Of a DNA stretch of 64,000 bases, positions 39,670 to 53,629 are shown in pieces; position 1 is the stretch's first letter, and every line of letters begins with the position of its first letter. This DNA is from Streptomyces hygroscopicus. Lineage in GTDB: Bacteria > Actinomycetota > Actinomycetes > Streptomycetales > Streptomycetaceae. The notes beneath the pieces are model-generated. The model made no database searches. It saw nothing but the letters and a program-made list of their open reading frames with translations, and had not been told where the DNA came from. A program made the translations under genes and the position numbers. The stretch is taken from contig CP018627.1 in assembly GCA_002021875.1 (NCBI GenBank), positions 5,828,001-5,892,000 on the forward strand, given 5' to 3'.

Positions 39670-40197
39670 ATGAGTGAACGGAGCACACTCGGCGGGCTGC
39701 GCGCCCAGATGGGGCAACTGGCCCGCGAGATCGCGAAGTTCGGGGTGGTCGGCGGTGCCGGCGTCTTCGTCAATCTCGCGGTGTTCAACCTGGTCCGCAG
39801 CGTCACCGAACTGCCGGTGGTGCGGGCCAGCATCGTGGCCACGGTGGTCGCCACCGGCTTCAACTACGTGGGCTACCGCTACTTCACCTACCGGGACCGC
39901 GACAAGCAGGGCCGCACCAAGGAGCTCAGCCTCTTTCTGCTGTTCAGCGCCATCGGCCTGATCATCGAGAACGGTGTGCTCTACGCCGCCACCTACGGCT
40001 TCGGGTGGGACAGCTCGCTGCAGAGCAATGTGTTCAAGTTCCTCGGCATCGGCCTGGGCACCCTCTTCCGCTTCTGGTCCTACCGGACCTGGGTGTTCCG
40101 GACACTGCCCGCGCGGGACACCGTCGTGTGCGCGGAAGCCTTCCTGTCGGACGCGCCGCCCGCCCAGGCCACCCGTAAGCAGCCGGTCCGCAAGTAG
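39670..40197 (+). CDS. GtrA family membrane protein
   Basis: This 175-residue protein has four predicted membrane segments (about 22-45, 52-73, 88-110, 122-142) and the family motifs KFGVVGGAGVFVNLAVFNLV, VATGFNYVGYRYFTYRDRD and FWSYRTWVF. GtrA proteins are thought to help flip or carry lipid-linked sugars in wall or O-antigen modification. ATG 39670 overlaps a small gap of 163 nt from the divergent purK. The cytoplasmic tail is polar. Confidence 0.88.
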   Translation: MSERSTLGGLRAQMGQLAREIAKFGVVGGAGVFVNLAVFNLVRSVTELPVVRASIVATVVATGFNYVGYRYFTYRDRDKQGRTKELSLFLLFSAIGLIIENGVLYAATYGFGWDSSLQSNVFKFLGIGLGTLFRFWSYRTWVFRTLPARDTVVCAEAFLSDAPPAQATRKQPVRK

Positions 40198-40221
40198 CGC
40201 CCGAGGGGCCTCGGGCGCCGC

Positions 40222-41472
40222 TCAGGAGCCCGAGGCGTCCTCGGCCTCCCGGCTGAGGAAGAGCGCGAACACCGGCGGATACTGCTGCAGCAGCTCCAGC
40301 CGCCCGCCGTCCGCCTCGGCCAGATCCCGTGCGACGGCCAGCCCGAGCCCGGTGGAGTTCCGTCCGCTGACCGTCCGCTCGAAGACCCGCGCCCCCAGGT
40401 CCGGGGAGACCCCCGGACCCTCGTCGGAGACCTCCACCACGGCCTGGTTGCCGGTGACCCGGGTACGCAGCGCGACCGTGCCGTCACCGTGCATCAGCGA
40501 GTTCTCGATCAGCGTCGCCAGCACCTGGGCGACCGCGCCCGGGGTGCCCACGGCGCGCAGCCCCTTCTTGCCCGAGCGCACGATGGCGCGGCCCTCGCTG
40601 CGCGAGGCCGGGCGCCACTCCTCGATCTGCTGCTTGACGACCTCGTCCAGGTCGAAGGCGACCGCGGAGCCGCTGCGCGGATCGCGCGAATTGGTCAGCA
40701 GCCGCTGGACGACGTCGGTGAGCCGCTCCACCTGCCCCAGCGCGATCGTCGCCTCCTCCTTGACCGTCTCCGGGTCGTCGGTGAGCGTGATCTCCTCCAG
40801 CCGCATCGACAGCGCGGTCAGCGGCGTACGGAGCTGATGCGAGGCGTCGGCGGCCAGCCGCCGCTCCGCGGTGAGCATCCGGGCGATGCGCTCGGCGCTC
40901 CCGTCCAGCACATCGGCGACCCGGTCCAGCTCCGGCACCCCGTAGCGCCGGTGGCGCGGCCGGGGGTCCCCGGAGCCCAGCCGCTCGGCGGTCTCCGCGA
41001 GGTCGGTGAGCGGGGCGGAGAGCCGGTGCGCCTGGCGTACGGCGAGGGCGACGGCGGCGAGCACGGCGAGCAGCGCGACGGCGAGGATGATCAGCATGGT
41101 GCGGCCGACCTCGCGGCTCACCGTGGTCCGGGACGCCTCGACCCGTACGACCTCGCCCTGCTCACCCGGCTCCTCGGCGGAGATGACGCTGCCCGTGGGG
41201 CGCTTGCCGATCTCCACATTGCGGTGGTCGGGCATCCTGATCAGGGCATAGCGGCCGGGCTCGATCTGCTCGCGCAGCACTCTGGGGGTGACCCCCTCGC
41301 CCCCCAGCAGCCTGCTGTCGACGATGCTGACCAGGCGCACCGCGTCGGAGCTCACGCTCTCCTGGGCGCTGTTCTCGATGGTCCGCGTCTCGACGATGAC
41401 CAGCGACAGGCCGAAGACCGCGATGACGACGAGCACCACGGCCAGCGTGGAGTTGATCAAGCGACGGCGCAT
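40222..41472 (-). CDS. Sensor histidine kinase
   Basis: This 416-residue kinase has two membrane helices (about 9-30 and 123-147) enclosing an extracytoplasmic sensor of about 90 residues, a HAMP region, the phosphoacceptor box DASHQLRTPLTALSMRLEEI (about 210), and ATPase motifs LIENSLMHGDG, DEGPGVSPDLG and NSTGLGLAVARDLAEADGG. It would phosphorylate the response regulator whose stop lies 31 nt upstream. The signal is unknown. The gene is convergent with GtrA. Confidence 0.93.
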   Translation of the reverse strand: MRRRLINSTLAVVLVVIAVFGLSLVIVETRTIENSAQESVSSDAVRLVSIVDSRLLGGEGVTPRVLREQIEPGRYALIRMPDHRNVEIGKRPTGSVISAEEPGEQGEVVRVEASRTTVSREVGRTMLIILAVALLAVLAAVALAVRQAHRLSAPLTDLAETAERLGSGDPRPRHRRYGVPELDRVADVLDGSAERIARMLTAERRLAADASHQLRTPLTALSMRLEEITLTDDPETVKEEATIALGQVERLTDVVQRLLTNSRDPRSGSAVAFDLDEVVKQQIEEWRPASRSEGRAIVRSGKKGLRAVGTPGAVAQVLATLIENSLMHGDGTVALRTRVTGNQAVVEVSDEGPGVSPDLGARVFERTVSGRNSTGLGLAVARDLAEADGGRLELLQQYPPVFALFLSREAEDASGS

Positions 41473-41503
41473 TGCCCTACCGTGTCAGCCCTGGTCAGTT
41501 TCT

Positions 41504-42184
<681 letters not shown>

Positions 42185-42339
42185 GGGGGTGATGGTAGTC
42201 CGCTGAGGTCGGGGCACGGGGCGCGTACGGCGCGACGGACGGAGCACGGAAGGTTGCACGCCTCCGCCGTGAGCTATCTCTCACCGTCTCCAAGAGTGTC
42301 AAGTACGTGTCGTATGGTGAAACAACGTCTGTAGCACTC

Positions 42340-42433
42340 CTCCGGGACCTTTGGTGACGACGACGCACCCAAAGGTCTCTGTCATGTCCGGAGCGAGGAA
42401 GGGGCCGGCACGACCGGCCCGGACCACGTCCGG
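42340..42433 (+). promoter_or_regulatory. Structured 5' leader upstream of the POT transporter
   Basis: Nested complementary segments are seen: CTCCGG (42340-42345) with CCGGAG (42388-42393), and inside it GACCTTTGG (42346-42354) with CCAAAGGTC (42369-42377). Two further hairpins follow: GGGCCGG / CCGGCCC (42402-42420) and CCGGAC / GTCCGG (42419-42433). If transcribed this is a folded RNA leader; I do not recognise a known riboswitch class. Confidence 0.45.
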
Positions 42434-42509
42434 CGCTCAGTCGCTCAGCCATCCCCCCATGGGCGCTGGCCCTGTCGGCAGCGCTCTCTGAGCACGCAAG
42501 GAAACCACC

Positions 42510-44036
42510 ATGGCGTCCAGCCTGACGAAGGGCGCCACCGCGCAGGGGACCCCTGCCGGCGGCAAGACCTTCTTCGGCCACCCCCGCGGCCTGGCCACTC
42601 TCTTCATGATCGAGATGTGGGAGCGGTTCAGCTTCTACGGCATGCGGGCCCTCCTCGTGGTCTATCTGATCTCCGGCGGCCCCGACGCCAAGGCCGGCGG
42701 GCAGGGCGGCGGGCTCGGGCTGACCGAGGGCAACGCGGTGGCCATCTACTCGGTCTACCTGGCCATGGTCTATCTGCTGGCCATGCCGGGCGGCTGGTTC
42801 GGCGACCGGGTGTGGGGCCCGCGCAAGACGGTGATCATCGCGTCCGGGATCGTCATGGCCGGGCATCTGGCGCTCTCCGTCCCCGGCCAGGCGACCTTCT
42901 TCGTCGGCCTCGCCCTGGTGGCGCTCGGCTCCGGTCTGATCAAGGCCAACATCTCGACGATGGTGGGCCAGCTCTACGACGGTCCGCAGGACCCGCGCCG
43001 GGACGGCGGCTTCACCCTCTTCTACATCGGCATCAACGTTGGTGCCTTCGCCGCTCCGTTGGTGATCGGCACCGTCGGCCAGTCGTACAACTGGCACCTG
43101 GGCTTCGCGCTCGCCGCGCTGGGCATGGCACTGGGTCTGGTCCAGTTCCTGATCGGCACCCGCCATCTGAGCCCGGAGAGCAACGTCGTCCCCACCCCGC
43201 TGGCGACCGAGGAGCGCCGCTCCTGGCTGCGCAAGGCGATGATCTGGCTGATCGTCGCCGCGGTCTTCTACACCGGCGTGGTGCTCAGCGGGAGCTGGAC
43301 CCTCAACTGGGTGCTGATCCCGATCACCATCCTGGGCCTGATCATCCCGACCGGCGTGCTCATCCGGATCAAGCGCGACCGGGACCTCTCGGCCGTCGAG
43401 CAGACCAAGGTGAGCGGCTACATCTGGTTCTTCGTGGCCGCCGCCGTGTTCTGGATGATCTACGACCAGGGCGGTTCGACGCTGTCCGCCTTCGCCGAGT
43501 CCAAGACCGCGGACACGATCTTCGGGCTGCACTTCCCGTCCTCGTGGTTCCAGTCGGTCAACCCGCTGATGATCATGGCACTGGCCCCGGTCTTCGCCTG
43601 GCTGTGGCTGTGGCTGGCGCGGCGTGACCGGGAGCCGAACACCACGCTGAAGTTCGCGATGGCCCTGGTCCTGATCGGCGCCTCGTTCTTCGTCTTCGTC
43701 GTGCCGATGGGGATGGCCCAGGACGGGACCAAGGTCAGCCCGCTGTGGCTGGTGTCGATCTACATGGTCCAGACGATGGGTGAGCTGTGCCTGTCGCCGG
43801 TCGGCCTGTCGGTGACCACCAAGATGGCGCCGGCGAAGTACGCCAGCCAGATGATGGGCGTGTGGTTCCTGGCCGTGACCGCGGGCGACTGCGTCACGGG
43901 GCTGCTGTCCATCGCCGGGGTCGACCTGAGCGGCGTCGGGGTGATCACGCTGGAGGCGGCCCTGGCGGCGCTCGCGGGCTTCGCGGTCTTCATGTACCGG
44001 AAGAAGGTCGTGGCCCTGATGGCCGACGTCCACTGA
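42510..44036 (+). CDS. POT/PTR family proton-dependent peptide transporter
   Basis: This 508-residue protein has about 14 membrane segments. The POT signature MWERFSFYGMRALLVVYL (about 35-52), with Glu-x-x-Phe-x-Tyr, and GTGLIKANIS-type sequence (GSGLIKANISTMVGQLY, about 143-160) followed by FTLFYIGINVGAFAAPL are clear. It imports di- or tripeptides with protons. ATG 42510 has an AAGGAAA site. The 325-nt upstream region contains strong RNA-like hairpins, and a terminator follows the gene. Confidence 0.93.
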   Translation: MASSLTKGATAQGTPAGGKTFFGHPRGLATLFMIEMWERFSFYGMRALLVVYLISGGPDAKAGGQGGGLGLTEGNAVAIYSVYLAMVYLLAMPGGWFGDRVWGPRKTVIIASGIVMAGHLALSVPGQATFFVGLALVALGSGLIKANISTMVGQLYDGPQDPRRDGGFTLFYIGINVGAFAAPLVIGTVGQSYNWHLGFALAALGMALGLVQFLIGTRHLSPESNVVPTPLATEERRSWLRKAMIWLIVAAVFYTGVVLSGSWTLNWVLIPITILGLIIPTGVLIRIKRDRDLSAVEQTKVSGYIWFFVAAAVFWMIYDQGGSTLSAFAESKTADTIFGLHFPSSWFQSVNPLMIMALAPVFAWLWLWLARRDREPNTTLKFAMALVLIGASFFVFVVPMGMAQDGTKVSPLWLVSIYMVQTMGELCLSPVGLSVTTKMAPAKYASQMMGVWFLAVTAGDCVTGLLSIAGVDLSGVGVITLEAALAALAGFAVFMYRKKVVALMADVH

Positions 44037-44130: not shown

Positions 44131-45501
44131 TCAGCGGGTGGTGCCACGCAGCTTGCGCCACGGGGTGAGGGTGAAGATGGCGCCGCCGAGCAGAACGGTG
44201 GTACCGGCGATCAGGGCGAGCGCCTTCAGCCCGCCGTGGTCACTGGCGCCGGTGTCGGCGAGCCCACCGCTGGTGGCCGAACCGCCGCTGCCCGAGGTGC
44301 CGCTGCCGCCGGAGGTGCCACCCCCGGAGCCGCTGCCCCCGGTCGTGCCACCGCCGGTCGTGTCACCGCCGGTGGTGCCGCCGGGCTGACCGGTGGTGTC
44401 CAGTTCGAGCGAGGCGCCGGGGTCCTTGGACGGGGTGCAGGTGGTGGTCGTACCGAGCGCCTTGACCGTCAGCACGCCGGGAGTGAGCGTCGACTTGCCG
44501 CTCGCGCCCGGCTTGTAGGTGCCGGTGAGGTCGGGGATCTCGATCGGATCACCGGACTTGATGGGCCCCTTGTTGGTCGGCCCCGCCACGGCGACGGTGC
44601 CCTTGTCGGCACCGCCGACCTTGACGGCCATCGACGGCTTGACCGAATCGGCGGGGATATCGGCCGGGCTGTCCATCACGGACTTGCCGAACTTCACGGT
44701 CAGCGCGAAGCTCCCGCCGCTCTTGGTGGCGTTGATCTGGACCGGGGAGGTCGCGTTCTTGTCGCCGATGGGGGTCTTGCAGGCGTAGGCGACCTCAACC
44801 TCCTTACCGGTGTACGAATCGTCTCCGCCGCCCCCGCCACCGGTGTTCCCGCTGGTCGTGCCGCTTGTGGTGCCGCTCGTGGTGCCACTGGTGGTACCGC
44901 TGGTCGTCCCGCTCGTCGTACCACTGGTGGTGCCGCTTGTCGTGCCGCCCGAACCGCTGCCGCCGTCCGTCACCTTGATGGTCGCGGCGGCCTTGACGGC
45001 CTCCTTCGCCGAGCACTTGGTGTCCGTGGACAGCGGCTTGCTGACGTTGATGTTGTAGCCGCCGGGCGTCAGCGTCACCTCGCCCGCCTTCGTGAGCTTC
45101 AGCTTCCCCTTCATGTCGGAGAGCTTCATCTCACCGCCCTTGGGGATCGCCGGGTTCTCCCGCGGCCCCTCCAGGGACAGGTCACCGGTCTGTGCGCCGC
45201 CCACCGTGATGGTGCCGGTCGGCAGGATGGTGTTGGCCTCCAGGTCGAGGATCGGCGGGTTCTTGGAGGCGGCCTGCACCGTCTTCCACACCACCTCGAC
45301 CTCCTCCCCGACCTTGGCCGTCGCCGGTGCCGTCACGGCCACGGTCGTGGTGCCCTCCACCGGCGGCAGACCGGAGATCGGAGGCGGTAGACACTCGGTC
45401 TTGTACGAGACCTCGGCGCCCGCCGCGCTGCCCGCGCCGAGCAGCACGCCCGCACCGCCGAGCAGCAGCGCGACAGCGGCCGCACTCACTCTTCGTCGCA
45501 T
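44131..45501 (-). CDS. Sortase-anchored surface protein (LADTG) with two Cys-pair domains
   Basis: This 456-residue protein has a signal peptide (1-30), two related beta-rich domains (about 31-155 and 205-345), each beginning with a Cys (TECLPPP; YACKTPIGDK) and ending with one (DTKCSA; TTTCTP), joined by a (TTSG)n linker. A second Gly/Ser/Thr spacer leads to LADTG, a membrane helix and a basic tail (TPWRKLRGTTR). That is a cell-wall sorting signal; LAxTG is the class E sortase type known in Streptomyces. The start lies 1 nt past the upstream stop. Function is unknown. Confidence 0.85.
   Translation of the reverse strand: MRRRVSAAAVALLLGGAGVLLGAGSAAGAEVSYKTECLPPPISGLPPVEGTTTVAVTAPATAKVGEEVEVVWKTVQAASKNPPILDLEANTILPTGTITVGGAQTGDLSLEGPRENPAIPKGGEMKLSDMKGKLKLTKAGEVTLTPGGYNINVSKPLSTDTKCSAKEAVKAAATIKVTDGGSGSGGTTSGTTSGTTSGTTSGTTSGTTSGTTSGTTSGNTGGGGGGDDSYTGKEVEVAYACKTPIGDKNATSPVQINATKSGGSFALTVKFGKSVMDSPADIPADSVKPSMAVKVGGADKGTVAVAGPTNKGPIKSGDPIEIPDLTGTYKPGASGKSTLTPGVLTVKALGTTTTCTPSKDPGASLELDTTGQPGGTTGGDTTGGGTTGGSGSGGGTSGGSGTSGSGGSATSGGLADTGASDHGGLKALALIAGTTVLLGGAIFTLTPWRKLRGTTR
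44849..44945. repeat. 12-bp tandem repeats coding for a Thr-Ser-Gly linker
   Basis: About eight variants of a 12-bp unit (such as GGTGCCGCTTGT) encode the (TTSG)n hinge between the two domains of the LADTG protein. Confidence 0.8.
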
Positions 45502-45502
45502 C

Positions 45503-46579
45503 TCAGGTGGTTCCTTTCGGAGTCGATCGGATCTCCTCGGACGGTGCGGAAATCTGGTGGTGCGGCGGTGCCTCCGGCGCCGTGTCGGGGGTGAACCAGG
45601 GCAGCGCCGGATGCGCGCCGTTCGCCGCGGCCGGTCCGGACGCGCTTGATCCGGACGACGGGGGCGTGGACGGGCGCGGCGGTGGCACGGCCCGGGACGT
45701 ACGGGGCCGTACCTTGTCCACGACGGCCATGCCGATCCGGAAGACCGTCGCCGCGACCACCACGCACAGCAGGACCCAGAAGAGCGTGACGCCCCAGGGC
45801 CGCCCCACCGTCCACGGCTGTTCGACGAGCAGCTTGGCTCGGTAGCGCAGCGAGACCAGATAGTCGCCATGGGCCCCGGCCGACAGTTCGACGTCCAGCT
45901 TGACCTGCGTCTTCTTCCCCGGCTGGAGCGTCCCGCGCCATCGCTGCTCCTCCCAGGAGGGGGCGAAGACGCCATGCGAGGTGCCCACTTCGAAGACCGG
46001 ATCACGGGCGGGGGTCGAGCCGAGATTGCCGACGGTGACGACGAGCCGTCGACTCGGCGGCGCGCCGAACCAGGTCAGCAGCCCGCTGGACCCGTCGAGC
46101 CGGGCCGAGAGCACGCTCAGCCGCTCGCCTCCGCTCCGCTCCTTCGGCAGCGGCGCGACCGGATGCCCGGCGACCTTGAACGCCACGTCCGCGGCGGCGG
46201 CCTCACCGGTCGCGGTCGCTATATGGATGACACAGGGACAGGGTTTGGACGGCTCGGCGACCGGCAGCTTCTTGGTGAAGGTGCCGTCCGCGCCGACGGT
46301 GACCGCCCTGCCGTCGCCGTTGGCACAGGAGTTGGTGCCGCCGATCATGTTCTGCCCGCAGATGAGCAGCGTGAGCAGGGCGCGCGGCCGCCATCGGGCG
46401 CCGGTCACGGTGACCGTGCCGCCCGTGCCCGCCTCGGCCTGGGAGACCTTCGCGGTCGGGCCCTCGGCCGCCTTGGCGCCGCCCGTAAGGGGCGCGCCGA
46501 GGGTGAGGAGGACCAGGGCGAGCACGGTGACCACGGCGGAGGGCCGGGCCGGGGTGCCTGCGAATCGGCATGCGTTCAC
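45503..46579 (-). CDS. Single-pass membrane protein with extracytoplasmic beta domain
   Basis: This 358-residue protein has a signal sequence (VVTVLALVLLTLGAPLTGGA), an extracellular domain beginning KVSQAEAGTGGTVTVTGARW with three cysteines plus CPC (ICGQNMIGGTNSCANGDG, SKPCPCVIH), a second beta domain (LVVTVGNLGSTPARDPVFEV) and a C-terminal membrane helix (TLFWVLLCVVVAATVFRIGM) with a Pro-rich cytoplasmic tail. GTG 46579 overlaps the previous stop by 4 nt. I do not recognise the family; an exported adhesion or transport-assist role would be a guess. Confidence 0.75.
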   Translation of the reverse strand: MNACRFAGTPARPSAVVTVLALVLLTLGAPLTGGAKAAEGPTAKVSQAEAGTGGTVTVTGARWRPRALLTLLICGQNMIGGTNSCANGDGRAVTVGADGTFTKKLPVAEPSKPCPCVIHIATATGEAAAADVAFKVAGHPVAPLPKERSGGERLSVLSARLDGSSGLLTWFGAPPSRRLVVTVGNLGSTPARDPVFEVGTSHGVFAPSWEEQRWRGTLQPGKKTQVKLDVELSAGAHGDYLVSLRYRAKLLVEQPWTVGRPWGVTLFWVLLCVVVAATVFRIGMAVVDKVRPRTSRAVPPPRPSTPPSSGSSASGPAAANGAHPALPWFTPDTAPEAPPHHQISAPSEEIRSTPKGTT

Positions 46580-47544
46580 GTGGTCGCTCCTGCCCCTGTG
46601 CTCTGCGGTTGTGGCTGAGGTCGCGGGGTGCGGGGTCGGCGCCGTCGTCTCCGCAGCAGCCAGACGCCTCCGCCGGTGCCCGCGCCCACCAGAGCCGCCG
46701 CCGCGGGGGCGAGCAGCCACCAGGGGACGGCCGTGTATCCGGCGCTCGCCGTGGCGTGCGCGCCCCCGTCCGCGGTGACCGTGAGCCGCACGTCCACCGA
46801 GTCGAGGGCGGGCGGGTGCGGCCAGCTCTCGGTGAGCCGCACCCGTTTGCCCGGCGGCAGCTCGACCGGCAGGGTGCGGGGGTCCCGGCGCAGCACCTGG
46901 CCGAAGAGCCCGTCGGCGCGTACGGCCAGCCGCGGGGTGAGCACGGTGTTGCCGCGGTTGACGAGGGCGTAGCGGATGGCCGCCCGGTCGCCGCGGCCCT
47001 GGATCGTCACGTCCTCCACGGCGAGGGCGGACAGCGTCGCGCCGCTGATCCGCAGCCGCAGCCGGACCGCGATCTCGCGGTCGCCGGAGGAGACCATGAT
47101 CGCGCCGGGCCGTTCGCCGGGCACCGCGTCGGAGGGGACGGTGACGGTGAAGGGGATGTCGGCGCGGGTACGGGGCGGCACCGTCACCCGCCGTTCGGCG
47201 AGCGCGATACGGGCGCCGTCGGCGCCGCGGAGCCGGACGGTGCGGGGGCGCTCGCCCTTGTTGGTGACCGACAGCTTGTCCTCCAGGACGGCGCCGGGCC
47301 CGCCTTCGAGGTAGATGTACGGCCGGTCGCCCGCGCCCGGTGCGCTGCCGCCCCCGGCGGCGGGAGCAGCCGACCAGTCGGGTCCGGCGGCGGCAGCCGG
47401 GGAGGCCCCGGACACCGGGCTCGCCGGGGTCACCAGGGAGGCGGCCAGCAGGGCCGGGGCACAGACGCGGACGGCTGGGCGGATGACGGTGTGCACGGCC
47501 GCACGGCCGACCGCTCGGCTCACTGCGCGGATACGCGACGGCAT
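46576..47544 (-). CDS. Membrane-anchored DUF916/WxL-like extracytoplasmic protein
   Basis: This 322-residue protein has a signal sequence, then beta-sandwich sequence (RPYIYLEGGPGAVLEDKLSV, TVPPRTRADIPFTVTVPSDA, VPGERPGAIMVSS, RYALVNRGNTVLTPRLAVRA) resembling the DUF916 peptidoglycan-binding domains associated with WxL surface systems. A late membrane helix (about 273-295) is followed by an Arg/Pro-rich tail. The family assignment is tentative. It is translationally coupled to the next gene (4-nt overlap) and sits between the two sortase substrates. Confidence 0.7.
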   Translation of the reverse strand: MPSRIRAVSRAVGRAAVHTVIRPAVRVCAPALLAASLVTPASPVSGASPAAAAGPDWSAAPAAGGGSAPGAGDRPYIYLEGGPGAVLEDKLSVTNKGERPRTVRLRGADGARIALAERRVTVPPRTRADIPFTVTVPSDAVPGERPGAIMVSSGDREIAVRLRLRISGATLSALAVEDVTIQGRGDRAAIRYALVNRGNTVLTPRLAVRADGLFGQVLRRDPRTLPVELPPGKRVRLTESWPHPPALDSVDVRLTVTADGGAHATASAGYTAVPWWLLAPAAAALVGAGTGGGVWLLRRRRRRPRTPRPQPQPQSTGAGATT

Positions 47545-47570
47545 CGGCGGCTCCTCGGCTGCCGCGAGCG

Positions 47571-48326
47571 TCAGGGGGTCCGCTGACGGCGGGTCAGCCA
47601 GAGCGCCCCGGCCACTCCGGCGAGCAGCACCGTGCCGCCGAGGGTGCCGAGCGCGACGGCGGAGTCCGCTGGTCCGGTCTGTGGCAGTTGGTCGTTGCCG
47701 GAGCCGCCCTGCGCACCGCCGGATCCGCCCGTGCCGCCCGTACTCGTACCGCCCGTACCGCCCGTACCGCCGGTGGAGCCGGAGTCCCCGCCGCCGCCCG
47801 CGCCCTTGACGTCCAGCGTCAGCGAGGGCTTGGGGTTGTTGCCCGGGGTGCAGGTGGTGGTCGTTCCCAGCGCCTTGATGGTGAGGGTGGAGGCGGTGAA
47901 GGTGACCTTTCCGCTCTTCTTGGGGGTGTAGGTGCCCGACAGATCACTGATCTTGATCGGGGTGTTGGCCGGGATGGCCTTGTCGTTGGCGGGCCCCGAC
48001 ACCGACAGCGTGCCGCTCTCCGCCCCGCCCAGTTTGATGAGCGCGCTGGGGTGCATGGCGCCCTTGCCGAGCTCGACGGGACTGGAGGAGACGCCCTTCT
48101 CGAAGGACATCGTGAGCTTGTAGGAGCCGCCGCTCGCGACGCTCTTGATGTCGATGGGCGATACGGCGCTCTTGTCGCCGATCGGTGTCTTGCACTGGTA
48201 GTCGACGTCCACGGTGTCGGCGTGCGCGGCCGGGGCGGTGAGGAGCACCACGGAGCCGGCCAGGGCCGCCGCGAGCGTGAGGGCGCCGCCACGGCCGGCC
48301 GGGCGCCGTTGGTTGTGGGACACCAC
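47571..48326 (-). CDS. Sortase-anchored surface protein (LPQTG), one Cys-pair domain
   Basis: This 251-residue protein has a signal peptide, one beta-rich domain framed by YQCKTPIGDK and TTTCTP, and a Gly/Thr spacer. It ends with LPQTG, a membrane helix (LGGTVLLAGVAGALWL) and a basic tail, a standard cell-wall sorting signal. The domain closely matches the second domain of the LADTG protein at the other end of the operon (shared CKTPIGDK, KALGTTTTCTP). GTG 48326 has GAGGGGAT upstream; GTG 48323 is adjacent. It heads the four-gene minus-strand operon. Confidence 0.85.
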   Translation of the reverse strand: MVSHNQRRPAGRGGALTLAAALAGSVVLLTAPAAHADTVDVDYQCKTPIGDKSAVSPIDIKSVASGGSYKLTMSFEKGVSSSPVELGKGAMHPSALIKLGGAESGTLSVSGPANDKAIPANTPIKISDLSGTYTPKKSGKVTFTASTLTIKALGTTTTCTPGNNPKPSLTLDVKGAGGGGDSGSTGGTGGTGGTSTGGTGGSGGAQGGSGNDQLPQTGPADSAVALGTLGGTVLLAGVAGALWLTRRQRTP

Positions 48327-48630: not shown

Positions 48631-49149
48631 TCAGCCCGGCGCGGCGAGTTCGGCCCAGACCGTCTTGCCGGATCCCTCCACGTTCCGCACGACCCCCCAG
48701 TCGAGGCACAGCCGCTGGACGATGAACATGCCGTGGCCGCCGGGCCGGCCGGCGCGGTGCGGGGTGCGCGGTGCGGGCGTGCCGGTGCCGAGGTCCACGA
48801 CCTCGAGGCGGAGCACCTTGGCGTTGCAGCTCACGCGCAGCTCCTCGGGACCCTCGGCGTGCAGACAGGCGTTGGTGACCAGTTCGGAGACGACGAGCAG
48901 GACGTCCTCGGCGGCGGCCCGGTGGTCGGCGGTCGCGGCCGGAAGCCACCCCCAGTCGCGCAGCGCCTCGCGTGTGAAGTCGCGCGCGCGCGGAACGGCC
49001 CCGCTGGCCCCGATCAGATGGAGCCTGCGGGTCTGGCGGATGGGGCCGGCGGTCGGGGGTGGCGGGGGCGCCGGTGGGGAGGCCGAAGCCGCGGGGCCGT
49101 CCGGGTCCGGGCCGCGGTCGCCCGGCGGGTACGGCCGGGTGGTGCTCAT
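48631..49149 (-). CDS. Anti-sigma regulatory kinase (RsbW-like ATPase)
   Basis: This 172-residue protein has a Pro-rich N-terminus (about 1-40) and an HATPase_c domain with VVSELVTNACLHA (N box) and GHGMFIVQRLCLDWG (G box). RsbW-type proteins hold SigB/F-type sigma factors and phosphorylate a STAS antagonist. The STAS gene lies just upstream on the same strand and a sigma gene diverges beyond it, so the three form a likely partner-switching module. Several similar ATPases exist in Streptomyces, so partner identity is inferred. Confidence 0.85.
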   Translation of the reverse strand: MSTTRPYPPGDRGPDPDGPAASASPPAPPPPPTAGPIRQTRRLHLIGASGAVPRARDFTREALRDWGWLPAATADHRAAAEDVLLVVSELVTNACLHAEGPEELRVSCNAKVLRLEVVDLGTGTPAPRTPHRAGRPGGHGMFIVQRLCLDWGVVRNVEGSGKTVWAELAAPG

Positions 49150-49332
49150 CAGCGCTTCACCTCACCGATTCACCGATTCAGGGTCAAGGGATACCTGATC
49201 TCTTCAACAGTTTCAGCCTGTCTCCTGCCCGGCCAAAGCGTGAGAACACCCACTACTTCCGCCCCACCGATGTGACGCGGGCAACGCATCGATGACCTAC
49301 CGATGACACGCCGGAAACAGGAGTGATCTACG
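49150..49332. other. Short gap between STAS and anti-sigma genes
   Basis: 183 nt with an ACCGATTC direct repeat near 49166-49182. Nothing else recognised. Confidence 0.4.
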
Positions 49333-49701
49333 TCACTCGACAAGGGCCGCGTCAAGCGACTCATGCACCGTAAAGACGGCGTCCGCGCCCGTGATCTCGA
49401 ACACTCGGGCAACGATCGGCAGCATCCCGGCCAGATGGACGCCGCCGCCTTCGGCCTCGGCCTTGAGCCGTGCGCCGAGGAGGACATTGAGCCCGGTGGA
49501 GTCGCAGAACTCCAGCTTCGAGCAGTCCACCACCAGCCGGACACGTCCCCCCTCTACGCACTTCTCGAGCGGCTCGCGCAGCACTTCGGCGGTGTGGTGA
49601 TCCAGCTCACCCGCCGGTGTCACGATCGCGCTCGCCCCGTGGTGCCGAACCTCGACCTGGAGCCGGCCTTTGCTGGCGCTGCCGACCATCCCGCGGTCCA
49701 T
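49333..49701 (-). CDS. STAS-domain anti-anti-sigma factor
   Basis: This 122-residue STAS protein has VTPAGELDHHTAEVLREPLE, VVDCSKLEFCDSTGLNVLLG (Ser68 is the likely phosphorylation site) and LAGMLPIVARVFEITGADAV. Unphosphorylated, such proteins release the sigma factor from its RsbW-like partner. ATG 49701 has AGAGGT upstream. It is divergent from the sigma gene with 261 nt between, and a SigB-like promoter appears to precede it. Confidence 0.87.
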   Translation of the reverse strand: MDRGMVGSASKGRLQVEVRHHGASAIVTPAGELDHHTAEVLREPLEKCVEGGRVRLVVDCSKLEFCDSTGLNVLLGARLKAEAEGGGVHLAGMLPIVARVFEITGADAVFTVHESLDAALVE

Positions 49702-49760
49702 CTGCGCACCTCTTCTGGCGTCTCGTTGCTTTCGATTGCGCGCATCGAACCCTACGCCTT

Positions 49761-49785
49761 CTACCCGGTCCTCTGGTAGCTGAAC
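49761..49785 (-). promoter_or_regulatory. Candidate SigB/SigF-type promoter of the STAS gene
   Basis: On the minus strand GTTC (49782-49785) and GGGTAG (49761-49766) are 15 nt apart, close to the GTTT-N14-16-GGGTAT pattern of SigB-type promoters, about 60 nt upstream of the STAS start. Confidence 0.4.
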
Positions 49786-49962
49786 ATTTCGCATAGTTCG
49801 GCAAATTCGGCAAATATGGACAACGTGGACTTGCCACTTGGTGGCCGATGCAGGTAGGCGTAGAGGGTCACATCCGCTTACGGCCCGGCTTTGGAGGCGC
49901 CGCTCACCGGAGCAGCACGTTATGGCACCGGCAGCCATATGCCGAGAACGATGGAGGAGACT

Positions 49963-50910
49963 ATGTCACCCCGCCTCGACGACACGCGTACCGAACCCTC
50001 GGGGAGTACTCGGACCACCGTTTCGTCGGCTCCCCTGCCCGAGCAGTTCACCCCCGACGCGGACGCCCAGGCGGCCGTTGGCCACCTTTTCGACGAACTG
50101 CCGGAATTGTCCGATCTGCCGGAAATACCTCCTTATGACACGGTAGCACCGGTGGACGCGAGGGCTCTGTCGAAGACCCTTTTCGAGCGTCTCGAGGTGC
50201 TGGAGGAAGGCACCCACGAATACGCCTATGTGCGTAACACCCTGGTCGAGCTCAACTTGGCGCTGGTCAAGTTCGCCGCCTCCCGGTTCCGCTCCCGCAG
50301 CGAACCGATGGAGGACATCGTCCAGGTCGGCACCATCGGCCTGATCAAGGCCATCGACCGCTTCGAGACCGGCCGGGGCGTCGAGTTCCCGACCTTCGCG
50401 ATGCCGACGATCGTCGGCGAGATCAAGCGCTTCTTCCGCGACACGAGCTGGTCGGTGCGCGTACCGCGGCGGCTGCAGGAGCTCCGTCTCGACCTGGCCA
50501 AGGCCGGCGACGAACTCGCCCAGCGGCTGGACCGCGCCCCCACCGTCAGCGAGCTGGCCCAGCGGCTGGACATCAGCCAGGCCGAGGTCGTCGAGGGCAT
50601 GGCCGCGAGCAACGCGTACACCGCGAGCTCGCTGGACGCCCAGCCGGAGGAGGACGACTCCGAGGGAGCGCTGGCGGACCGGATCGGCTACGAGGACCAC
50701 GGACTCGAAGGCATCGAGTACGTCGAGTCCCTGAAGCCGCTGATCGCCGATCTGTCCGCGCGCGACCGGAAGATCCTCTCCCTGCGCTTCGTGGCGAATA
50801 TGACGCAGTCGGAGATCGGTGAGGAGCTGGGCATCTCCCAGATGCACGTCTCGCGGCTGCTGTCGCGCACCCTCCGTCGGCTCCGTAAGGGTCTGATGAT
50901 CGAGGAGTGA
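49963..50910 (+). CDS. RNA polymerase sigma factor, SigB/SigF/SigG family
   Basis: This 315-residue sigma-70 factor has regions 2 (VQVGTIGLIKAIDRFETGRG, FPTFAMPTIVGEIKRFFRDT, WSVRVPRRLQELRLDLAKAG), 3 and 4 (LSARDRKILSLRFVANMTQS, LGISQMHVSRLLSRTLRRLR), typical of the stress/sporulation SigB/F group. It may correspond to the SigI locus of S. coelicolor, but I cannot confirm this. ATG 49963 is chosen for GGAGGA just upstream. The flanking STAS and RsbW-like genes suggest post-translational control. Confidence 0.92.
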   Translation: MSPRLDDTRTEPSGSTRTTVSSAPLPEQFTPDADAQAAVGHLFDELPELSDLPEIPPYDTVAPVDARALSKTLFERLEVLEEGTHEYAYVRNTLVELNLALVKFAASRFRSRSEPMEDIVQVGTIGLIKAIDRFETGRGVEFPTFAMPTIVGEIKRFFRDTSWSVRVPRRLQELRLDLAKAGDELAQRLDRAPTVSELAQRLDISQAEVVEGMAASNAYTASSLDAQPEEDDSEGALADRIGYEDHGLEGIEYVESLKPLIADLSARDRKILSLRFVANMTQSEIGEELGISQMHVSRLLSRTLRRLRKGLMIEE

Positions 50911-50921
50911 CGCCTCCGCAG

Positions 50922-50968
50922 ACGGGTAAGGGCCCGCCCCCGGCCGACCGGGACGGGCCCTTATCCGT
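50922..50968. terminator. Terminator between sigma gene and hutI
   Basis: 18-nt arms with two mismatches (50922-50939 and 50951-50968, ACGGGTAAGGGCCCG and complement) lie between two convergent stops. Confidence 0.8.
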
Positions 50969-50984
50969 GCGCGCTGCCGTTCCG

Positions 50985-52202
50985 TCAGGCCAGGTCAAGG
51001 TCAGATCTGAGCAGGGTGCCGTTGTGCCACACCGCCGAGACCAGCGGGACACCGGGACGGTAGGCGAGGTGCACATGGGACGGGGCGTCCAGCAGCACCA
51101 GATCGGCGCGGGCACCCGGGCTCACCCGGCCCACATCGGTACGGTGCAGGGCCCGCGCCCCACCGGCCGTGGCGGCCCACACCGCCTCGTCGGGCGTCAT
51201 TCCCATCTCCCGTACGGCCAGGGCGACGCAGAACGGCATGGAGCTGGTGAAGGACGAGCCCGGGTTGCAGTCCGGGGACAGCGCGACCGTGGCGCCCGCG
51301 TCGAGCAGCCGGCGCGCGTCCGGATAGGTCGAGCGGGTGGAGAACTCCGCTCCGGGGAGCAGGGTTGCGACCGTCTCCCCCTGGGCCAGCGCGTCGACGT
51401 CCGCATCGGTCAGATGGGTGCAGTGGTCGGCTGAGGCGGCGCCCAGCTCCACCGCGAGCTGCACGCCTGGGCCGTAGGAGAGCTGGTTGGCGTGGACTCG
51501 CGGGATCAGCCCGCGCTCCTTGCCCGCGGTCAGGATGGTGCGGGCCTGGTCGCCGTCGAAGGCGCCCTGCTCACAGAAGACATCGATCCAGCGGGCGTAC
51601 GGGGCGCAGGCGTCCAGCATCGGGCCGGTGACCAGATCCACGTACGCGGCCGGATCGTCGGCGAACTCGGGGGCGACGATATGCGCCCCGAGGAAGGTCA
51701 CCTCGTCGGTGTGGGCACCGGCGATGGTCAGCGCGCGGGCCTCGTCCTGCGAGGTCAGCCCGTAGCCGGACTTGATCTCGACGGTCGTGGTGCCCTGGCG
51801 GCGCGCCTCGGCCACATAGCGGCCGACGTTGGCGTGCAGCACGTTGTTCGACGCGGCGCGGGTGGCGGCGACGGTCGTGCGGATGCCGCCGGCGCTGTAC
51901 GGGCGGCCGGACATCCGGGCGTTGAACTCCTCGGTCCGGTCGCCCGCGAAGACCAGATGGGAGTGGGAGTCCACAAAGCCCGGAATGGCGGCCCGGCCAC
52001 CGGCGTCGACCCGGTTGTCGGTGGCGGGTGCTTTGCTGGACTCACCGACCCAGGCGATGCGGTCGCCGTCGATGACGACGGCCGCGTCCCGGATCAGGCC
52101 GAGGGGGCCTTCACCGAGGGAGGGGTCATTGGTGACCAGACCGGCGATGTCGGTGATGGCGGTCGTGGTCGGCGTGGTCGTCGCAGTCGTCGCGGTGGTC
52201 AT
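50985..52202 (-). CDS. hutI: Imidazolonepropionase
   Basis: This 405-residue amidohydrolase opens imidazolone-propionate to N-formimino-L-glutamate, the third histidine-degradation step. [20 protein letters not shown] (metal site), [39 protein letters not shown] and [19 protein letters not shown] are typical. ATG 52202 is chosen; the frame extends 16 codons further but a GGAG site lies between. The first 15 residues are a Thr-rich run ([16 protein letters not shown]). It is the last gene of the hutU-amidohydrolase-hutF-hutI set. Confidence 0.94.
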
Positions 52203-52246
52203 CGTGGGGGTGTTCTCCTTCGTCGGCCGTTGCGGTGGCGGCCGGA

Positions 52247-53629
52247 TCACCGTCCGTGCAGGGCTTCGATGGACTCGGCCAGCGCTTGCGGGACGCGCGG
52301 GACGAGCTGATGGGTGCCGTCCCGTACGACATGGCGGCCCCCGACCACGGTGTGCCGGACGTCCGCGTTGGTCGCCGCGAATACGGCGGTCTCGGCGCCC
52401 AGCCGGGGCGGCGGCCCCGCCGTGCGCACCGAGTCCAGCGCGACCGTGGTGAGGTCGGCGAGCGCGCCCACCTCGATCCGGCCGGCCTCCGCACCCCAGC
52501 CGAGCGCCGCGTGACCGTCCACGGTGGCGGCCCGCAGCAGCTGGGCCGCGGTCCAGTGGCCCCTTGCGCGGGTGTGCAGCCGCTCGTCGAGCTCCATGGC
52601 GCGGGCCTCCTCCAGGATGTCGATCACGGCATGGCTGTCGCTGCCCAGCGAGAGCGGTGAGCCCGCACGCTGCAGCTCGGCGGCCGGGCCGATCCCGTCG
52701 GCGAGGTCACGCTCGGTGGTCGGGCACATGCAGACACCGGTGGCGGCATGGCCCAGCAGCCGGATGTCGCCGGGGGTGAGGTGGGTGGCGTGCACGGCGG
52801 TCGTCTCCGGGCCCAGCACACCGTGGTCGGCGAGCAGCCGGGTGGGGGTGAAGCCGTGCGCCTCCACACAGGCGTCGTTCTCCGCGGTCTGCTCGGAGAG
52901 ATGGACGTGCAGGGGCGCCGTGCGCTCCTGGGCCCACCCGGCCACGGTCGCGAGCTGATCGGCGGGGACGGCCCGCACCGAGTGGATCGCCGCGCCGATG
53001 CGGGTGTTGCCGTCGCTCTTCAGCTCGGAGACCCGCTCGGCCCAGGCTTCCGCCGTGCCGTCGGAGAAGCGCAACTGATGCTCGTTGGGCTCGGCCCCGA
53101 AACCGGAGGAGAGATAGCAGGTGTCGAGCAGGGTGATCCGGATACCGGCCTCGGCCGCGGCCGCGATCAGGGCCTCCCCCATCGCGTTGGGGTTGCCGTA
53201 GCGGGCGCCGCCGGGCGCGTGGTGGAGGTAGTGGAACTCCCCCACGCAGGTGATCCCGGCCATCGCCATCTCGGCGTAGACGGCGCGGGCCAGCTCGAAG
53301 TAGCTGTCCGGGGTCAGCCGGTCGGCGACCCCGTACATCACCTCGCGCCAGGTCCAGAAGGAGTCCGGCGCGCCCGCCGCCTCGGTCTCCGCCTCGCTCT
53401 CCGCCTGTACGACACCGCGCAGGGCCCGGTGGAAGGCGTGGCTGTGGGCGTTGGCCAGACCGGGGATCGTCAGACCACGGAGAGTGACGGATCCGGCGGG
53501 CGGGCGCGGACTCCCGGGCACCACCGCCGTGATCCGTCCGTTGGCCGCGGCCACGATCACCACGTCCGACCGCACGCTTCCGTTCACCCAGGCGTGCTCC
53601 GCCCAGTACGTCTGCGCCGTCAGTGACAC
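52247..53629 (-). CDS. hutF: Formimidoylglutamate deiminase
   Basis: This 460-residue amidohydrolase converts N-formimino-L-glutamate to N-formyl-L-glutamate and ammonia. [20 protein letters not shown] is the metal-binding segment, with [40 protein letters not shown] and [20 protein letters not shown] further on. GTG 53629 has GGAGG 7 nt upstream and overlaps the previous gene by 10 nt. A HutF-type route requires a formylglutamate deformylase downstream. Confidence 0.93.

Follow-up and report, generated by a model that had tools for sequence, protein, structure and literature searches.

The 64,000-nucleotide stretch of Streptomyces hygroscopicus DNA analysed here (contig CP018627.1, positions 5,828,001 to 5,892,000; the window in what follows) carries a four-gene operon, A-D, for surface proteins. 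Genes A and D code for candidate sortase substrates sharing a two-cysteine domain, B for a membrane protein related to the family WxLIP, and C for a further membrane protein. The operon is real and conserved, and it is a variant of the known WxL kind of locus, not a new system. It probably derives from an actinobacterial WxL/WxLIP surface locus that lost WxL and had its display domains turned into sortase substrates, as there is no WxL at the locus, the D-type domain occurs in WxL proteins, loop 2 of B is shortened, and B of this type forms a nested clade. Support for descent from a WxL locus is good; the present-day working of the set is inferred. An earlier note, made from the sequence, had considered an undescribed surface display or adhesion system. 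In that form the idea was not supported, since B is a relative of WxLIP/DUF916 and a derived WxL locus is the best reading of the operon.

Probable derivation of the operon from a WxL locus

The WxL wall-attachment system has been described chiefly in gut bacteria such as Enterococcus. A search for WxL frames between 40000 and 53000 of the window and in 17 orthologous A-D loci found none. The source genome (12.0 Mb, one contig) gave no WxL match with a custom profile at an expect value (E) of 1e-4 or with PF13731 at E 0.001. In a sample of 296 Actinomycetes genomes from 114 genera, it is among the five of 18 operon-bearing (A-domain) genomes without a WxL match at E 1e-4.

The first, diverged domain copy of D (D1; 44968..45420, minus strand) has relatives in the N-terminal domains of WxL proteins. 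A D1 profile of 17 orthologs matches the N-terminal part of the WxL proteins of loci L058 (E 3.8e-38), L059, L070, and L065 (E 3.5e-21), and the A profile matches the same four proteins at E 5.9e-14 to 2e-9; L136 and L137 were not significant with the D1 profile. The middle of the sister WxL proteins is matched weakly by the N-terminal profile of C (E 5e-4 to 2.2e-3; best reversed control 0.42). The E-values of the D1, A, and C profiles refer to a set of 12 sequences, with 0.029 as the best reversed control for D1.

Loop 2 of B is 22-31 amino acids (aa) long in 27 A-D-type rows, namely the window, 15 loci, and 11 database proteins taken without inspected gene context, and 32-40 aa long in the 34 rows whose stretch includes WxL. 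Five of the 39 non-A-D rows were left out of this comparison; in these rows, where no WxL was found, the length is 25 aa (L134), 31 aa (L119, L141), and 38 aa (L132, L133). For loop 1, the range is 10-43 aa in the A-D-type rows, against 34-45 aa in 37 of the 39 other rows. In the available text on the published WxLIP model, a DUF916 hairpin inserts into WxL and a separate buttressing loop is present; loop 1 or 2 of B may or may not correspond to one of these. Five of 40 WxLIP frames (L106, L112, L116, L121, L129) were missed by the gene caller and have neither a loop length nor a tree tip. Locus L056, with an insertion in B, was omitted from the B alignment, and L131, whose frame is broken, is not in the tree.

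After removal of both loops, the midpoint-rooted tree of B places the 28 A-D-type tips in one clade with a support of 62. Under this rooting, the clade is nested in a clade of 34 tips (support 97) together with WxL-paired B proteins of Streptomyces and L065.

Gene B as a relative of WxLIP

Gene B (46576..47544, minus strand) encodes a WxLIP-like membrane protein of 322 aa with a signal-type N-terminal hydrophobic stretch, two putative Ig-like domains, and a C-terminal membrane helix (46645..46722, minus strand; helix 226-251 of the structure model), which fits the WxLIP layout of about 320-380 aa. When the model of B was searched in Foldseek, the solved WxLIP of E. faecium was the first match; the model contains a second beta-sandwich and aligns across both domains with 9i1y. 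The B-family profile matches the solved WxLIP at E 8e-4. Against DUF916 (PF06030), B itself reached 16.6 bits, below the cut-off of 27.3, and its paralogs reached 41.1 and 31.5 bits, over it. PF11797/DUF3324 was not matched by B among the Pfam rows listed. With a solved WxLIP as first structural match and paralogs over the Pfam cut-off, B is a relative of the known family WxLIP (DUF916).

Operon layout and conservation

All four genes are arranged head to tail on the minus strand in the order A-B-C-D, from the GTG start codon of A at 48326 to the end of D at 44131. A and B are separated by 26 nt, B overlaps C by 4 nt, and C and D are spaced by 1 nt. The frames and their tight spacing bear out the four-gene surface operon of the earlier note, and its description of B and C as signal-peptide proteins with late membrane helices also stands, with an N-terminal hydrophobic stretch and such a helix in each (for B from the structure model). 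Gene C (45503..46579, minus strand) has a signal peptide, neocarzinostatin-like and NEW3-like regions (both below cut-off), a membrane helix, and about 80 residues beyond it, a feature absent from that note. Its score was 21.0 bits with the neocarzinostatin family PF00960 (cut-off 25) and 24.6 bits with the NCBIfam enediyne chromoprotein profile (cut-off 86).

Matches to the A domain were found in 18 of the 28 sampled genomes of the genus, the source genome included. Weak matches occurred in eight further genomes; those at L064, L066, L067, and L069 look like chance, as the frames there are unlike such surface proteins. In total, 97 orthologous loci were compared, 17 and a further 80 among the matches listed, with at least one strain apparently in both sets. 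All four genes were found by profiles in 83 of the 97 loci, always on one strand, so that they are conserved together. The gene order is A-B-C-D in 75 of these 83; the other eight sort as BACD or ACBD by the starts of overlapping stop-to-stop frames, and these orders are taken as frame-sorting artefacts. Gene B was not found in seven loci having A, C, and D (L046, L163, L166, L171, L180, L182, L186), which suggests that it was lost more than once. Gene A was not found in another seven of the 97 loci, in all of which the locus has less than 2.2 kb upstream of D. Genome G285 has B and C at the same site, where the A-domain search found nothing. The flanks at 39670-44036 and 48631-52250 are conserved in most orthologous loci; the genes there were read as a peptide transporter, a two-component pair, an anti-sigma-type ATPase, a STAS protein, a sigma factor, and an imidazolonepropionase.

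Two-cysteine domain and sorting signals

Gene A (47571..48326, minus strand) codes for a signal peptide, a single two-cysteine domain (47799..48221, minus strand), a Gly/Ser-rich linker, and an LPQTG anchor (motif at 47673..47687, minus strand). Gene D (44131..45501, minus strand) codes for a signal peptide, two copies of the domain (D1 and a second at 44398..44817, minus strand), a Thr/Ser/Gly linker, and an LADTG anchor (motif at 44248..44262, minus strand). Two cysteines are present in each copy, at 45/159 in A and at 37/163 and 241/355 in D. The A domain served as query for the searches of the source genome and the class sample. Genome-wide it found three copies at E < 1, namely A itself, the second copy of D (52% identity, E 1.8e-39), and the first copy of D (35% identity, E 2.2e-8); two additional rows were both at E > 1. 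The similarity among the three copies is far beyond chance, as expected from the earlier claim that the LPQTG and LADTG proteins share a domain present three times in the operon.

Searches in Pfam and NCBIfam gave no family for the two-cysteine domain; a known characterised family would have spoken against the earlier note. The sole part of A recognised was its anchor, with TIGR01167 over cut-off and PF00746 below, and D had no match to a curated family there. No detectable homology was found between the A/D domain and the WxL domain. DUF6801 (PF20611), considered as a candidate family for the domain, was rejected with zero matches in the genome. Sequence searches of PDB with A alone and with B alone gave weak rows only, read as noise; the D profile had a single weak match there, the OmpA-like domain-containing 9ifr_A (E 0.0046). 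Genome G151 has, at three sites (L060-L062), three small proteins that combine a distantly related A-type domain with an LPxTG-free membrane tail; they had no convincing Pfam match. A distant relative with its own LPxTG-like tail (L063) had no PDB match and no Pfam match at E 0.1.

A hydrophobic stretch and then a basic tail come after both LPQTG in A and LADTG in D, and both proteins are thus predicted sortase substrates. The motif of A is LPxTG in all 90 loci where A was found, and the motif of D is LAxTG in 95 of 97, being unread in L174, which ends with the contig, and in L179. The split is without crossover wherever the motif was read. Seven sortase matches over cut-off were identified in the source genome. 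Among them is a clear ortholog of SrtE1 (E 1.9e-93 to 5cuw), and by reading of their sequences the seven comprise four probable class E and three probable class F enzymes. As SrtE1 is described as preferring LAXTG over LPXTG (PMC5148588, available text), the motif of D would fit a class E sortase. The use of different sortases for A and D, suggested in the earlier note, is plausible.

WxL and WxLIP loci in Actinomycetes

The B profile matches 100 of the 296 class genomes, in 40 of the 114 genera, and the custom WxL profile matches 76, with 22 constituent rows matching their own genomes by construction. Of these 76 genomes, 73 also match the B profile, an overlap inflated by the building of the WxL profile from loci beside WxLIP genes and given with kinship ignored. 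The Pfam model PF13731 matches 22 genomes, 14 over cut-off. In 32 of 40 fetched loci, the gene immediately upstream of the WxLIP-like one, on the same strand, is WxL-like. The WxL-like domain is elsewhere in the stretch in three (L102, L103, L112) and was not found in five (L119; L132; L133, which ends with the contig; L134, the G285 site; L141). Loci L058, L059, L065, and L070 also carry it. WxLIP-like genes with WxL-like neighbours are thus common in Actinomycetes (loci L102-L141), far beyond the count given by the Pfam WxL model. That model matched nine of 39 proteins from WxL loci at E 0.01, several of the 39 not being WxL candidates. In most of the aligned WxL-like C-termini, the region of the first Trp is kept and the second Trp is missing.

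HtaA is matched by five of the 39 proteins (best E 5e-42) and Big_3_5 by nine, a hint that proteins of some actinobacterial WxL loci may bind haem or a ligand. In L065 (7567-8346), a divergent sortase gene adjoins the WxL-type gene. WxLIP-like genes lie beside metallophosphatase-like genes in L119 (4970-7709) and L141 (4951-8572), where no WxL frame was found and loop 2 is 31 aa long; perhaps these represent a second, separate loss of WxL.

Comparison with known systems

The WxLIP and the WxL cluster were defined in PMC10599100 and the csc clusters described in PMC1534035; PMC12537917 and PMC3123327 are also cited (available text in each case). In the Bacillota WxL locus or csc cluster, WxLIP consists of DUF916, DUF3324, and a membrane helix, and it is accompanied by small and large WxL proteins and often by an LPxTG protein. 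Like this cluster, A-D is an operon of surface proteins only, with an LPxTG protein and a single WxLIP-like membrane protein within the published size range. Unlike it, A-D has no WxL domain, two sortase substrates sharing a domain, the extra membrane protein C, and a shortened B loop. Closer relatives are actinobacterial WxL/WxLIP loci, with B homologs of 36-40% identity in the Streptomyces loci L058, L059, and L070 and of 35% in L065, a C homolog of 30% identity in L065, and the D-type domain in common. They differ in that a WxL domain is joined to the D-type domain in one protein, which has no sorting signal at that end.

The sorting signal of D is of the same type as that of LAXTG substrates of class E sortases, such as the chaplins of S. 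coelicolor, whereas A has LPxTG instead. The displayed domain of chaplins differs from that of D. A putative membrane anchored protein of Corynebacterium diphtheriae (3lso) had no sequence match to the D profile at E up to 10. Among the matches listed from open-licence literature, searched by title and abstract opening, none was on Streptomyces WxL loci or on a WxL-free WxLIP operon.

Proposed mechanism and alternative explanations

The family of B, the shared domain, the absence of WxL at the locus, the changed loop, the nested position, and the fixed motif split were all computed. In the related arrangement, a secreted protein has a display domain of the A/D type and, at its C-terminus, a WxL domain, its gene lying beside that of a membrane-anchored WxLIP. 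In the A-D operon, WxL is missing and the display domain is present in two proteins ending in LPxTG (A) and LAxTG (D). The C-like Ig region, weakly seen within sister WxL proteins, here belongs to the separate membrane protein C, and B retains a WxLIP-like fold and membrane helix with a shortened loop. After secretion and cleavage at T-G, A and D would become linked to peptidoglycan; a class E sortase would act on D, and the same or a different sortase on A. B and C could extend their Ig-like outer parts into the wall to hold or arrange A and D, and the result would be a membrane-to-wall complex displaying the two-cysteine domain. The protein contacts, sortase assignment, ligand, and biological role in this scheme are inferred. 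A tentative extension is a rewired WxLIP: after the loss of WxL, B and C may have come to hold sortase-anchored partners, and two sortases may place A and D separately, in place or time.

B could instead be merely a generic Ig-like membrane protein of the COG1470/FixG_C type, its WxLIP likeness being that of a common beta-sandwich and the operon an unrelated Streptomyces set. FixG_C is indeed the only Pfam family over cut-off in B, its named relatives are mostly "COG1470 family" or hypothetical, and other Ig-like chains score near WxLIP in structure matching. However, this explanation seems improbable against paralogs over the WxLIP cut-off, relatives in some cases named "DUF916" or "WxL protein peptidoglycan domain", B-like genes that adjoin WxL-like genes, and a D-type domain in the sister WxL proteins. 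Even with descent from a WxL locus correct, B could be a decaying leftover of little present role, and A and D stand-alone wall proteins, as its absence from seven of the 90 loci having A, C, and D and the variable length of its loop 1 would allow. This is rather unlikely, as B is kept with an intact frame in the other 83 of these loci, and in G285 B and C remain where A and D were not found. For the anchoring step, a single class E sortase may serve both A and D, in which case the two motifs would not imply two enzymes; the genome has the SrtE1 ortholog and other enzymes read as class E. This is possible though doubtful, as the described preference of SrtE1 and the absence of motif crossover both speak against it.

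Significance

The available text of PMC10599100 assigns WxL systems a role at host surfaces and places them almost entirely in Lactobacillales and Bacillales, and more than 91% of 938 WxL sequences are in Firmicutes according to PMC9772566 (available text), so that some WxL outside Firmicutes was already known. The occurrence of WxLIP-like genes and WxL-like domains in 100 and 76 of 296 Actinomycetes genomes contrasts with this published near-restriction. The operon also raises the question of why each of two domain-sharing proteins keeps its own fixed sorting motif. One free-living genus has a WxL-free offshoot as well, which allows WxLIP with and without WxL to be contrasted, within the same cell in 13 of the 18 operon-bearing genomes. 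If the rewiring of WxLIP is true, the operon would be a natural swap of one non-covalent wall anchor for two covalent ones within one surface complex.
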